Below are positions 4,878 to 24,467 of a stretch of DNA of 64,000 bases, piece by piece. The notes under the pieces are model-generated. The model was given only the letters and a program-made list of their open reading frames with translations. It was not told where the DNA came from and did no database searches. The translations under genes and the position numbers were made by a program. How positions within the stretch are numbered: position 1 is the stretch's first letter; the number at the start of each line of letters is the position of its first letter. The stretch is from Limnohabitans lacus (GTDB taxonomy: Bacteria; Pseudomonadota; Gammaproteobacteria; Burkholderiales; Burkholderiaceae_C): contig NZ_JASGBH010000003.1 in assembly GCF_030053395.1 (NCBI RefSeq), forward strand, positions 310,001-374,000, in the 5' to 3' direction.

Positions 4878-5435
4878 GTGTTTAAAAAGAAAAAATCGCC
4901 ATTCGTTCGACACCGTGGCTTTAGCTTTTTGGAAGTGCTGGTGGTGCTCGCTGTTGTGGCTGTGTTGGTGTCATTGGCCGCGCCATCACTGGCCTCTTTG
5001 CGACAGCAGCATCGGTTGCAGTCCTTGGCTGAAAGCTTTTTCAACAGCATGTCTTTGGCGCGCTCTGAAGCTTTGCGAAGGCAACAAACCGTGACGCTGT
5101 GCCCCCGTGCTAGCGATGTCGAGTGCGACGCGTCGGACAACTGGCAGCAAGGTTGGCTCGTGTTTGTGGATGCCAATGGCAATGCCCGAAGAGAGCCTGA
5201 TGAGCCCTTGCTGGAGGTCAAGCAAGCGTTGTGGAGCGCTGCACGCCTGAATGTCAGCAACACCGCTGAAGCCTATTTTTCTTATGGAGCTCTGGGGCGC
5301 AGCCAGACGGTCAATGGCGGATTCATGGCGGGCACGTGGCGCTTTTGTTTGCCGGCATCACCCAAGGGTTGGCAAGTGGTGGTCAATCCGCTGGGCAGGC
5401 CTCGTGTCGAGACTTATACGCCTCAAACGTGCTGA
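4878..5435 (+). CDS. fimT: FimT/GspH-type pseudopilin
   Basis: This is a minor pilin or GspH-family protein of 185 residues. The basic leader KKKKSPFVRHRG precedes FSFLEVLVVLAVVAVLVSLA, a class III prepilin site with Glu at +5, and then a GspH domain with LARSEALRRQQTVTLCP and the C-terminal WRFCLPASPKGWQVVVN that GspH/FimT proteins share. The start is GTG 4878, six bases after a GGGAGGA ribosome site; the longer upstream reading has no ribosome site and no leader. It diverges from the pilE-like gene and converges on nrdR. In related bacteria FimT works with PilE, PilV, PilW and PilX at the pilus tip and can bind DNA during uptake; that role here is inferred. Confidence 0.85.
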   Translation: MFKKKKSPFVRHRGFSFLEVLVVLAVVAVLVSLAAPSLASLRQQHRLQSLAESFFNSMSLARSEALRRQQTVTLCPRASDVECDASDNWQQGWLVFVDANGNARREPDEPLLEVKQALWSAARLNVSNTAEAYFSYGALGRSQTVNGGFMAGTWRFCLPASPKGWQVVVNPLGRPRVETYTPQTC

Positions 5436-5440
5436 ACGGA

Positions 5441-5887
5441 TCAGCGAACTTCGTCCACCAGGGTCTTGAAGTCGTCGATGTCTTCAAAGCTGCGATACAC
5501 GCTGGCAAAGCGCACATAGGCCACTTTGTCGAGCTTTTTCAATTCGCGCATGACCAACTCGCCTATGCGGTTGGAGGCGACTTCGCGGCTGGGCAGGGCC
5601 AGCAGTTTTTCTTCGATGCGTTCGATGGCCCCATCCACCTGTTCGGTGCTGACTGGGCGCTTGCGCAGGGCCAAGTTCAGGCTGGCGCGCAGTTTGTCGC
5701 GTTGGTATTCGATGCGCCGACCGTCTTTTTTGACGATGGCCGGGAAGGTGACTTCAGGTTTCTCGTAGGTCGTGAAGCGCTTTTCACAGGCGCCGCACTG
5801 GCGGCGACGCCGGATGAAGCCCCCGTCTTCGGCCAACCGTGTTTCAACCACTTGGGTTTCGAGGTGACCGCAGAAGGGGCATTTCAT
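5441..5887 (-). CDS. nrdR: Transcriptional repressor NrdR
   Basis: NrdR is the ATP/dATP-sensing repressor of ribonucleotide reductase genes. The 148 residues show the N-terminal zinc ribbon (CPFCG near residue 3, and [17 protein letters not shown] near residue 26), followed by an ATP-cone domain from about residue 46 to 136 ([21 protein letters not shown] begins it). Length equals the family norm. It lies 15 bases after glyA on the same strand, the usual betaproteobacterial glyA-nrdR operon. The end converges on fimT with five bases between and no visible terminator. Confidence 0.97.
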
Positions 5888-5902
5888 CGCTGTGTTTCCA
5901 GA

Positions 5903-7147
5903 TTACTTGTAGACCGGGAAACGTGCGGTCAAGGCGTTGACCTTGGCGCGCACGGCGGCGATGTTGGCTTCGTCTTTGGGGTTGTCCAGCACGTCAGCGA
6001 TCAGGTTGGCCGTGATGCGGGCTTCCTCATCCTTGAAGCCACGGGTGGTCATGGCGGGAGTTCCGATGCGCACGCCGCTGGTGACGAACGGCTTTTCGGG
6101 GTCGTTCGGGATCGCGTTTTTGTTGATCGTCATGTGGGCAGCGCCCAAAGCGGCTTCGGCTTCCTTGCCGGTGATGCCCTTGGCGCGCAGGTCCACCAGC
6201 ATGACGTGGCTTTGGGTGCCGCCGCTCACAATGCGCAAACCGCGCTGGGTCAGGGTCTCGGCCACGATTTGGGCGTTCTTGATCACCTGGGCTTGGTAGG
6301 CCTTAAACTCAGGCGCCAGCGCTTCTTTGAAAGCCACGGCCTTGGCCGCAATGACGTGCATCAATGGGCCACCTTGCAGGCCAGGGAAGATGGCGCTGTT
6401 GATGGCTTTCTCGTGCTCGGCCTTCATCAAGATGATGCCGCCGCGTGGGCCGCGCAAGCTCTTGTGGGTTGTCGAGGTCACCACGTCCGCGTGGGGCACG
6501 GGATTGGGGTACACGCCAGCCGCAATCAAGCCTGCGTAGTGGGCCATGTCAACCATGAAGATCGCCCCGACTTCTTTGGCCACTTTGGCAAAGCGCGCCC
6601 AGTCGATGTGCAGGGAGTAGGCCGAAGCGCCTGCGACGATCAGCTTGGGCTTGTGTTCGCGGGCTTTGGCTTCCATCGCGTCGTAGTCGATGGCTTCATT
6701 TTTGTCGAGGCCGTAGCTCACGACGTTGAACCATTTGCCCGACATGTTCAGCGGCATGCCGTGGGTCAGGTGACCGCCTTCGGCCAGGCTCATGCCCATG
6801 ATGGTGTCGCCGGGTTTGAGGAACGCCAGGAAGACGGCTTCGTTGGCCGATGCGCCGCAGTGCGGCTGCACGTTGGCGCAGTCGGCACCAAAGATCTGTT
6901 TGATGCGGTCTATGGCCAGTTGCTCGGCGATGTCGACGAATTCGCAGCCACCGTAGTAGCGCTTGCCAGGGTAGCCTTCGGCGTATTTGTTGGTGAGCTG
7001 CGAGCCTTGTGCGGCCATGACGGCGGGCGAAGCGTAGTTTTCGCTGGCGATCAGCTCGATGTGGTGTTCCTGACGCGCGTTTTCGGCCTGGATGGCGGCG
7101 AAAATTTCGGGGTCGGCTTGTTCAATCAGAATGTTGCGGTCGTACAT
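5903..7147 (-). CDS. glyA: Serine hydroxymethyltransferase GlyA
   Basis: GlyA interconverts serine plus tetrahydrofolate with glycine plus methylene-tetrahydrofolate and is the main source of one-carbon units. The 414-residue protein has the standard length and the PLP-binding lysine in [14 protein letters not shown] near residue 228, plus the N-terminal [15 protein letters not shown] signature. Start ATG 7147 has GAAGGA nine bases upstream. It heads the glyA-nrdR operon. The 5' leader of more than 200 bases holds a candidate structured RNA (7282-7374), so control at the RNA level is possible. Confidence 0.98.
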
Positions 7148-22779: not shown

Positions 22780-22955
22780 GCGGACACTATAAAAGATCGT
22801 CACGGGGACCCAAATTACAAATTGATGGTTTTGATCATTGGGTGTAAGCCAAATGGGTTATTTGATTTTGAAGAATTTCATTCAAGATACTCCGATATCT
22901 TTTTGGATGTCGGTTTCATTTCTTGGTGACTCAACAAAGGATGTGGTGTTGAGGT

Positions 22956-23294
22956 ATGAAAAACAAGCTCCTTTCGGTCACTTTCGCAGGTCTCACGGTC
23001 ATGGGTGCTTTTTTCGGTCTCGCAGCACGAGCGGATAGCTTGCTCGATTTCTCGATTTTCAAGCCACCCACCTCAGAGCAACGGACCATTTCTGAGCCTG
23101 TGGTGTCGTGGCTGGTCAGGCCGAATGCACAAACCTTCTGCGAACAGGCGCAACCCAAGGATGGTTTTTTTGCGCGTCCGGAGGGTTGTGTGTACTGGCA
23201 TCGCAAGAATGCTTCTTGCACCATCGTGACCACCAACAGCACCACGCATTCGCAGCTGGGGCATTTGTTTGTTCGCTGCATGACAGGTCAATGA
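22956..23294 (+). CDS. Small secreted cysteine protein, degenerate HExxH paralogue
   Basis: This 112-residue protein has a signal peptide (about 26 residues, GLAARA before DSLL). The mature part has four cysteines spaced as in the next gene and shares RTISEP, WLVR, GCVYW, CTIVT and QLGH with it. At the position where the neighbour has LGHELRHCF this protein has LGHLFVRCM, so the HExxH-like zinc motif is lost. The stop overlaps the start of the neighbour (ATGA), so the two are translated together. Function unknown; likely exported to the periplasm or outside. Confidence 0.75.
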   Translation: MKNKLLSVTFAGLTVMGAFFGLAARADSLLDFSIFKPPTSEQRTISEPVVSWLVRPNAQTFCEQAQPKDGFFARPEGCVYWHRKNASCTIVTTNSTTHSQLGHLFVRCMTGQ

Positions 23295-23665
23295 ACTTGC
23301 AGACCTCTGGGAACCCCTTCGTCGCTCGAATGCTTGTGCGTTCAATTGCCTGCTGCGCTTTGTTGGGGTTGGGCGCTTGCCAAACCTTGCAGCCGCCAGT
23401 GGTTGATCAGGTGCGCTTCATGCCAGCTGCTTTGGCCAAGAGGACCATCCCTGAGCCCAAAGTCAAATACCTGGTGAGGGCAGACGGGTATGAGTACTGC
23501 GCACGCATCACGGGGATTCCAGTCACGCCCACCTCGCGCCCGATGGCCTGCGCTTATTGGAATACCCGGCGCCTAGAGTGCACCATCGTCACCCCCTTGG
23601 AGACGGGCTACAACTATTTAGGGCATGAGTTGCGGCATTGTTTTGAGGGAAGCTTTCATGATTGA
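23291..23665 (+). CDS. Small lipoprotein with HExxH-like motif
   Basis: This 124-residue lipoprotein has a lipobox LLGLGAC at residues about 23-29. The mature region carries four conserved cysteines and the motif YLGHELRHCFEGSFHD at the end, in which HELRH fits the zinc-protease HExxH pattern. It is a tandem paralogue of the upstream gene, sharing RTIPEP, YLVR, ACAYW and CTIVT. Similar small GHE..HCF proteins are common but uncharacterised in Burkholderiales, as far as I can recall. ATG 23291 is set by the ATGA overlap. A protease role is not shown; the domain is very short. Confidence 0.72.
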   Translation: MNLQTSGNPFVARMLVRSIACCALLGLGACQTLQPPVVDQVRFMPAALAKRTIPEPKVKYLVRADGYEYCARITGIPVTPTSRPMACAYWNTRRLECTIVTPLETGYNYLGHELRHCFEGSFHD

Positions 23666-23828
23666 TCAAGAACAGCGACTTTGCGGGTGGCTGATGAGCC
23701 CAACCTGTGGATGGCGCGCATCTTGTCCCATGGCATGAGGATCCTGCGCCAATCCAGGCCATTCAAGAAAAATTCAAGCGCGTAGGGGGCATCGATGAGA
23801 GCCTTGCCACCATTTGGAGCGGGGATGT

Positions 23829-24467
23829 TCAGCCGAAGACTTCGAAGATCCGGCGTTTGTCATCGATCGACAACTCGATCAGCTCAGGCAGGGTCTCGCA
23901 ACCCATTTTGTCGAGCACGCGGCTGCGATGGAGTTTGACGGTGGAGGGGGCCGATCCATTGAGCTCTGCAATTTCCTTGTTGCCGTAGCCTTTGATCATC
24001 CATCGGCAAATCTCTTGCTCTTTTTCAGTCAAGCGGCTGAACCGTTGCCGAATGTCCATGACGCGCACCAATTGCTGTTGGCGGGCACGGTCCTTGTTCA
24101 AGCCATTTTCAATGGCCGTCATCAGCGATTCCATGCTGAAGGGCTTGAGCAGAAAATCAATGGCCCCATGTTTCATGGCATTGATGATTTCGGAGGGTTG
24201 ACTTTCCCCGCTGATGAAAATGATGGGCGTTTCTCGACCGCTTTGGAGCAGGGTATTTTGCAACTCGGTGCCTGTCATACCGGGCATGCGCATGTCCAAC
24301 AAAATCACTGCGGGTGAAATCGGCAGGGAGTCTTTTAAGAAGGCCTGGGGACTGTCGAAAGTCTGGACAGAATAATTGGACGAACTGAGTGTGAACGCCA
24401 GACTGCGACAGATCGATGGATCGTCATCGATCAAATAGACATGGCCTCTGAAATCGTCGAAATTCAT
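23829..24467 (-). CDS. FixJ/NarL-type two-component response regulator
   Basis: This 212-residue regulator has a receiver domain (residues 1-125: LIDDDPS acidic pocket, phospho-acceptor Asp in VILLDMRMPGMTG, conserved Lys in FLLKPF) and a LuxR-type helix-turn-helix (about 140-200: LTEKEQEICRWMIKGYGNKEIA, then STVKLHRSRVLDKMG). No histidine kinase gene is next to it, so it is an orphan here. An 18-base perfect palindrome lies 34 bases upstream of its start, a likely binding site, perhaps its own. It diverges from the sigma54 activator gene. Confidence 0.93.
   Translation of the reverse strand: MNFDDFRGHVYLIDDDPSICRSLAFTLSSSNYSVQTFDSPQAFLKDSLPISPAVILLDMRMPGMTGTELQNTLLQSGRETPIIFISGESQPSEIINAMKHGAIDFLLKPFSMESLMTAIENGLNKDRARQQQLVRVMDIRQRFSRLTEKEQEICRWMIKGYGNKEIAELNGSAPSTVKLHRSRVLDKMGCETLPELIELSIDDKRRIFEVFG

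Follow-up and report, generated by a model that had tools for sequence, protein, structure and literature searches.

Overlapping genes for a candidate zincin-like lipoprotein and its motif-less twin in Limnohabitans

Why should a freshwater bacterium encode, in two overlapping genes, a small exported protein with an HExxH motif together with a paralogue that has lost it? The question is raised by a locus in a stretch of 64,000 nucleotides (hereafter the window, meaning the whole stretch analysed) of the 3.15-Mb assembly of Limnohabitans lacus. The original prediction saw in the two genes, here called A and B, an active/inactive couple made by duplication and translated together. Our analysis favours, at a probability of about one half, a reading that takes B for a minimal metalloprotein of zincin-like type and probable peptidase activity, and A for an inactive, co-translated twin acting in the same pathway. 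Operons that join an enzyme to a dead twin offer a clean system for asking how enzymes are regulated by their inactive paralogues, and the A-B operon, conserved and with domains of some 80 residues, is a compact example. Activity of B, if confirmed, would make it a very small peptidase and provide the first known function for a family present on hundreds of uncultured viral contigs.

The A-B gene pair and its conservation

Both open reading frames were found as originally proposed, joined by an ATGA overlap (Table 1) that suggests translational coupling. As judged by eye, the product of gene A has an ordinary signal peptide ending ARA-D and that of gene B the lipobox LGAC-Q. The two proteins are 33% identical (BLASTP, E 7e-16) and all four cysteines correspond (C62, C78, C88 and C108 of A to C70, C87, C97 and C117 of B), which agrees with the earlier description of exported paralogues with four aligned cysteines and supports a common ancestry of the two sequences. 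The contrast between a lipoprotein and a soluble form, also drawn at the outset, holds in the window and is conserved only in part among relatives: a rough regular expression recognized a lipobox in 24 of 32 B proteins against 1 of 32 A proteins, and found none in seven of the eight B proteins of loci L053-L060. B ends in HELRHCFEGSFHD, with the pattern HExxHxxxGxxH, and its tail GHELRHCFEGSFHD faces GHLFVRCMTGQ in A, where the site is lost. The HExxH-like motif noted earlier in B is indeed present; what had been overlooked is a third histidine, H123, strictly conserved and followed by a single residue.

Table 1. Locations of the features discussed (positions of the window unless another genome address is given)
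Feature	Location	Strand	Length	Basis or remark
Gene A, secreted paralogue lacking a lipobox	22956..23294	+	112 aa	ORF and translation
Gene B, predicted lipoprotein with intact HExxHxxxGxxH end	23291..23665	+	124 aa	ORF and translation
ATGA overlap, stop of A and start of B	23291..23294	+		sequence
Codons for GHELRHCFEGSFHD, predicted metal site H112, E113, H116, H123	23621..23662	+		
Scar of the third gene	23658..23835	+		blastn against L032
C-type examples	own genome, G000:C22:50041-50388 (L027)			also L063-L104
D-type gene	own genome, G000:C1:325151-325573	-		L461, L463; also L464 and L120 in G321

A search of 60 genomes with B, the window's own included, returned 18 genomes with matches, all of the window's genus; B is present in nine of the 60 (again counting the own genome), and A adjoins it in the same nine. 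A GTDB scan yielded 95 relatives, the best 80 of which were kept and represent 78 loci; the nearest among named records come from Limnohabitans and Comamonadaceae bins. Within these best 80 of 95, the B subfamily occupies 31 loci (L032-L062) and a distant B is found in L105. An A-type gene lies directly upstream of B in all of these 32 loci, which overlap in organisms with the nine A-B genomes, and the nearest possible start of B falls between -8 and +2 bases from the A stop in every one of them. The intact/degenerate pair is therefore conserved in 32 of 32 loci, as the original prediction would have it, and this conservation, together with that in 9 of the 60 genomes, rules out chance as the origin of the pair.

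A might instead be a decaying duplicate and a pseudogene in the making; the same conservation largely refutes this idea, and we consider it hardly credible. A is more divergent than B in 486 of 496 locus pairs and its two remaining His positions drift, as such decay would predict; however, it stays open and adjoins B in 32 of 32 loci, and ten positions, including all four cysteines, Trp52 and His98, are invariant over 33 A proteins (P48, W52, C62, C78, C88, T92, H98, G102, L104 and C108). Between the window and L032, gene A has a dN of 0.271 and a dS of 1.092 (dN/dS about 0.25), and gene B a dN of 0.158 and a dS of 0.950; both genes are under purifying selection, the high dS making dN/dS a rough figure. 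Across the 32 loci the distances of A and B correlate (r 0.85), a figure to which shared descent by itself would contribute. A tree of 144 rows, limited by its few columns (97) and long branches, unites all A proteins in one clade (99/96) and 31 of the 32 B proteins in another (99/95), the B of L105 standing elsewhere on a long branch.

Beyond the pair, a third type of gene (C-type), to which the other matches of the 60-genome search belong, encodes a lipoprotein with the motif intact; its usual place is between two genes that we take, by eye, to be tex-like and short-chain dehydrogenase genes, and several strains carry two intact copies in tandem. The family as a whole is rare in bacteria: a phylum sample had it in 2 of 378 genomes, both belonging to the window's genus, and a family sample in 6 of 399, from two genera; a class sample of 369 (alignment A1) gave, besides the own genome, only weak matches, and tblastn of B in plasmids gave none. 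One of the weak matches of the class sample, L128, ends in GHEVLHCFYGSYHRY.

The metal-site motif in intact and motif-less members

The full motif is present in 32 of 32 B proteins and in 55 of 56 solitary C-type open reading frames, the remaining one being cut by the end of a contig, and G111, H112, E113, R115, H116, C117, F118, E119, G120 and H123 are invariant across 31 bacterial B/C proteins. The first sets of phage relatives were picked by patterns holding parts of the motif, and conservation of those parts is there by construction. In rescans that left a single position free (80 of 120 stretches each, the 80 collapsing to 68 distinct proteins for Glu and to 67 for the third His once duplicates were merged), Glu occupied its position in 67 of 68 distinct phage proteins and His the third position in 67 of 67, and 47 of the latter 67 proteins end 0 or 1 residue past that histidine. 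Free loss of the Glu among homologues, which had been named as an observation that would refute the original prediction, is thus not seen in intact-type relatives; in the A clade the loss is complete (33 of 33 proteins) and happened once, not freely. The single exception among the phage proteins has Lys (L347, 2606-2965, minus strand), its motif GHKLRHCFQGQFHD differing from the intact one by this Lys for Glu only, a natural loss.

This strictness bears on an alternative that we hold to be possible if rather improbable, namely that B binds metal without being a peptidase, in a structural role, for metal capture or for some other chemistry, and that A is a sibling binding module. Glu is not needed to hold a metal and is nevertheless kept in 67 of 68 proteins, which points to catalysis. 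The motif-less members, on the other hand, lend the alternative some weight, since they are retained in at least two forms. All 33 A proteins (window included) have Leu where the Glu would be and lack the third His; of the HExxH histidines, 23 proteins retain the first, 16 the second and 15 both. We read A as inactive because Glu and the third His are lost in all copies; as both HExxH histidines persist in those 15 proteins, A might still hold metal in some strains. The second form, the D-type, has a signal-like leader and no motif (LTNAVRSCVP / LGNAVRACSP); its gene overlaps the end of what is presumably, as named by eye, a hybrid histidine kinase/receiver gene, and it occurs in 2 of 299 family genomes, the own and one other. 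Retention of A and of the D-type without the motif suggests that the fold is useful without the site, and the D-type together with the 15 A proteins that keep both histidines favours a binding role of the fold and keeps the non-peptidase alternative alive. As a separate observation, the A protein of L062, from a Hydrogenophaga-labelled bin, ends in GHLVRFCFEG, near to the intact ending and devoid of the Glu and the second His.

The cysteines vary in a paired manner. Of 105 aligned rows, 74 have C70 as well as C87 and the other 31 have neither, one never occurring without the other, and C97 and C117 are present in 105 of 105 rows, C117 (not C97) being part of the search patterns. Therefore, disulfides C70-C87 and C97-C117 are predicted.

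The AlphaFold2 model of B has a mean pLDDT of 83.8, reaching 94-98 over residues 51-120, and consists of a strand (57-62), a helix (66-74), two strands (87-91 and 96-101) and a final helix (107-119). This strand-helix-strand-strand-helix order fits the N-terminal subdomain of zincins. H112 to H116 lie inside the predicted helix 107-119, the placement expected of a zincin HExxH, and the conserved Glu (67 of 68) and C-terminal third position (67 of 67) make H123 a putative ligand. The model of A (mean pLDDT 85.7) repeats the element order of B with one additional strand, a helix at 98-110 replacing the HExxH helix, and A has no motif to place on it.

Foldseek of the B model against solved structures returned none at E <= 0.001; in a viral structure library the sole match at that threshold, for both models, was A0A6J5LHA2, an uncultured phage protein (E 5.3e-7 for B and 1.2e-4 for A). 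A second aligner gave for B weak scores, at the level of unrelated rows, with MMP-11 (Z 2.8; 67 residues, rmsd 4.5) and IrrE (Z 2.3; 59 residues, rmsd 4.3). Many of its top rows, weak as well, were glyoxalase/VOC-type proteins for both models, mainly VOC-type for A, which again suits a metal-binding protein that is no peptidase. The lack of a clear fold match in the PDB excludes nothing; what carries the zincin reading is the motif, the strictness with which it is kept and the order of elements, not a fold match.

Sequence profiles were equally sparing. For the two window proteins Pfam returned no family at E <= 10, Pfam together with NCBIfam nothing but one chance match, and searches of the PDB by single sequence and by profile nothing below E 0.29. 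Of 105 relatives, one matched phrog_87, a metallo-protease family, at E 1.3e-6, and 42 matched phrog_27783 at E <= 0.001. The latter is a short profile with no function assigned, which meets the last 16 residues of B at E 0.0074 and does not match A; in 299 genomes of the phylum it gave one weak match, and in controls 0 of 14. The only broad profile match of the phage family in these searches is therefore a family of unknown function.

Phage-borne relatives and the closest known systems

The A/B domain with an intact site is carried by hundreds of uncultured-phage contigs. A DNA pattern of the motif found at least 120 stretches in viral contigs, and a search of viral contigs with an alignment (A3) gave 234 pattern stretches, 198 of which were confirmed as relatives and 80 kept. 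The phage proteins are short and mostly have signal-like leaders, with a lipobox in 36 of 92 according to a regular expression. Scanned with a profile, 320 viral loci yielded 315 matches, 313 of them with HExxH, the other two being L347 and a fragment; these loci were chosen by the motif and are informative for neighbouring genes only, and in this respect none of the 320 holds an intact/degenerate pair. In the tree, for which phage members were restricted to those with the CysX...GHExxHCF pattern and C-type members to 29, all but one of the 50 phage rows share one side, the exception, L122, grouping with the bacterial rows. Transfer from phage to Limnohabitans is the simpler reading of this distribution. 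In cultured phages, tblastn of B reached at best E 4, and that of two phage relatives found none.

The abundance of the family in phages raises the alternative of a domesticated surface or superinfection-exclusion protein resembling Cor, kept for protection, whose site destroys or masks a receptor. In its favour, the family is much more frequent among uncultured viral contigs (198 of 234 stretches) than in bacterial genomes (2 of 378), and the varied phage neighbours, which include radical SAM, endonuclease, MazG, PhoH and tail sheath genes, are those of an accessory gene. Moreover, 2 of 105 members match phrog_1119 (Cor), with a best E of 6e-5. However, in L251 the match stops short of the motif (residues 1-75 of 111), two further and weaker ones to Cor involve the first 21-25 residues only, neither A nor B matches phrog_1119 at E <= 10, and we noticed no phage genes around A-B in the stretch that was read. 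This origin seems to us doubtful. A place in a lysis cassette was also considered and dropped, no endolysin, holin or spanin being found among the 25 listed of the 80 families of 124 neighbour proteins; weak spanin-profile matches of members fall mostly, where positions were given, in the N-terminal half, and one member (L262) matches an endolysin profile at E 0.007. One group of phage members, on L150, L156, L158 and similar viral contigs, lies beside radical SAM genes and phrog_30201, a recurrent family of unknown function that accounts for 12 of the 124 neighbour proteins.

Our preferred reading of B as a zincin-like protein invites comparison with characterized families. Metzincins carry the signature HExxHxxGxxH, followed by a Met-turn. 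B shares with them three histidines and a Glu, catalytic in metzincins, in one run, with Gly before the third His; by contrast, it has one residue more between the second and third His, which lies 7 and not 6 residues past the second in the B protein of the window and in 31 aligned B/C proteins, and no Met-turn follows, nor is there room for one. The spacing is thus one residue off HExxHxxGxxH/D. Our literature search met with no description of the A/B family, and the string HExxHxxxGxxH appeared only in a review of nervous-system metzincins.

As described in PMC3890501, the mini-zincins (Acel_2062/PF06262, DUF1025) are, like B, very short HExxH proteins without a Met-turn, and both members with very little sequence after the third ligand and a relative with longer spacing before the Gly are known. 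Their third ligand is Asp (HExxHxxGxxD), whereas that of B would be His at a spacing one residue longer, and they are presumed intracellular, in contrast to the exported A and B with their predicted disulfides (PMC3890501). PF06262 did not match A or B, and it is absent from the 25 listed of the 34 families weakly matched by 105 members. The same paper reports a mini-Glu-zincin without detectable activity (PMC3890501); therefore, a complete site is no proof of catalysis, which speaks for the non-peptidase alternative, as does the existence of HEXXH enzymes of other chemistry (PMC12636437). Regarding the pairing, PMC8235301 describes in Listeria a phage-linked pair (Mtz-Tim) in which a secreted metzincin cleaves an exported partner. 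That partner is a TIMP-like lipoprotein cleaved by a soluble protease, whereas A is a site-less paralogue of B, whose model adds one strand to the element order predicted for B, and hence not of the TIMP-like kind, and it is the intact member that is usually the lipoprotein in A-B (PMC8235301).

The third operon gene, a proposed mechanism and the upstream modules

In 30 of 32 loci the gene directly after B encodes an extracellular solute-binding protein of family 3 (PF00497, SBP_bac_3) and in many of them overlaps the B stop codon; it is missing from L061, L105 and the window. When 21 genomes were searched with it, the eight other A-B genomes had an adjoining orthologue (55-100% identity), and the 12 genomes without A-B had either no match (six) or distant matches of 23-29% (six). 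No tblastn match was found in the window or in its genome, which hence keeps A-B without the third gene. What remains in the window is a scar made of the two ends of the solute-binding gene, its start overlapping the B stop and some 40 bases from its other end; everything between is gone. In blastn alignments, window 23031-23674 corresponds to L032 4741-5384 and the window from 23793 to L032 from 6153; the solute-binding gene spans L032 5368-6195, of which 5384-6153 is missing from the window. Upstream of A-B, the window also lacks L032 970-4741, which holds an adhesin-like gene. We call these gaps losses because other strains have the genes. Relative to the sister contig L032 they lie at window positions 22803-22956 and 23665-23835, and A-B is left alone between them.

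We can now propose how the pair might work. B would be a very small, disulfide-braced protein of the periplasm, usually lipid-anchored, in which H112 and H116 of the HExxH and the near-terminal H123 may hold one metal ion, probably zinc. With E113 as the putative general base, B would most likely be a one-metal hydrolase of the cell envelope, in all likelihood a peptidase whose target is narrow. A would be soluble and catalytically dead, with the fold and both disulfides kept, and its retention would reflect a part in the pathway of B, where it most likely binds B or the substrate of B as a decoy or regulator. The solute-binding third member present in most relatives may bring in a small-molecule signal. 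The active/inactive couple by duplication envisaged at the outset is supported in part, by common ancestry, conserved pairing, nearly absolute Glu and His in the intact members and purifying selection on A, whereas the metal, catalysis, contact between A and B and the role of the third gene are inferred. It is tempting to go further and imagine an undescribed group of tiny, disulfide-braced, phage-borne periplasmic metallopeptidases, with HExxHxxxGxxH and the third ligand at the C-terminus, that Limnohabitans has turned into an operon of enzyme, dead twin and ligand-binding protein, the latter two gating proteolysis at the surface. If true, a phage-type protein would have been domesticated by a freshwater genus, but we regard this extended scenario as speculative and unlikely to hold in full.

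The genes upstream of A-B differ between strains. In some, a Big_13 Ig-like adhesin gene follows an OmpA-family gene, or a YDG/PATR protein is encoded; in others, FecR-LysM and CHASE2 kinase genes follow a response regulator. The common theme of these modules is the cell surface, and the link to an adhesin is weak. They speak for a further explanation, in which A-B would be a release or maturation protease pair for the neighbouring surface adhesin and which we find very improbable: the module differs between clades, is missing in the window and was not seen in L052, L061 or L105. As the upstream module varies, the mechanism proposed above is not rested on the cell-surface theme. In the Hydrogenophaga-labelled bin (L062), the genes that precede the A-B pair and its solute-binding protein are instead MotA/ExbB- and MotB/OmpA-like, which also counts against the adhesin explanation.
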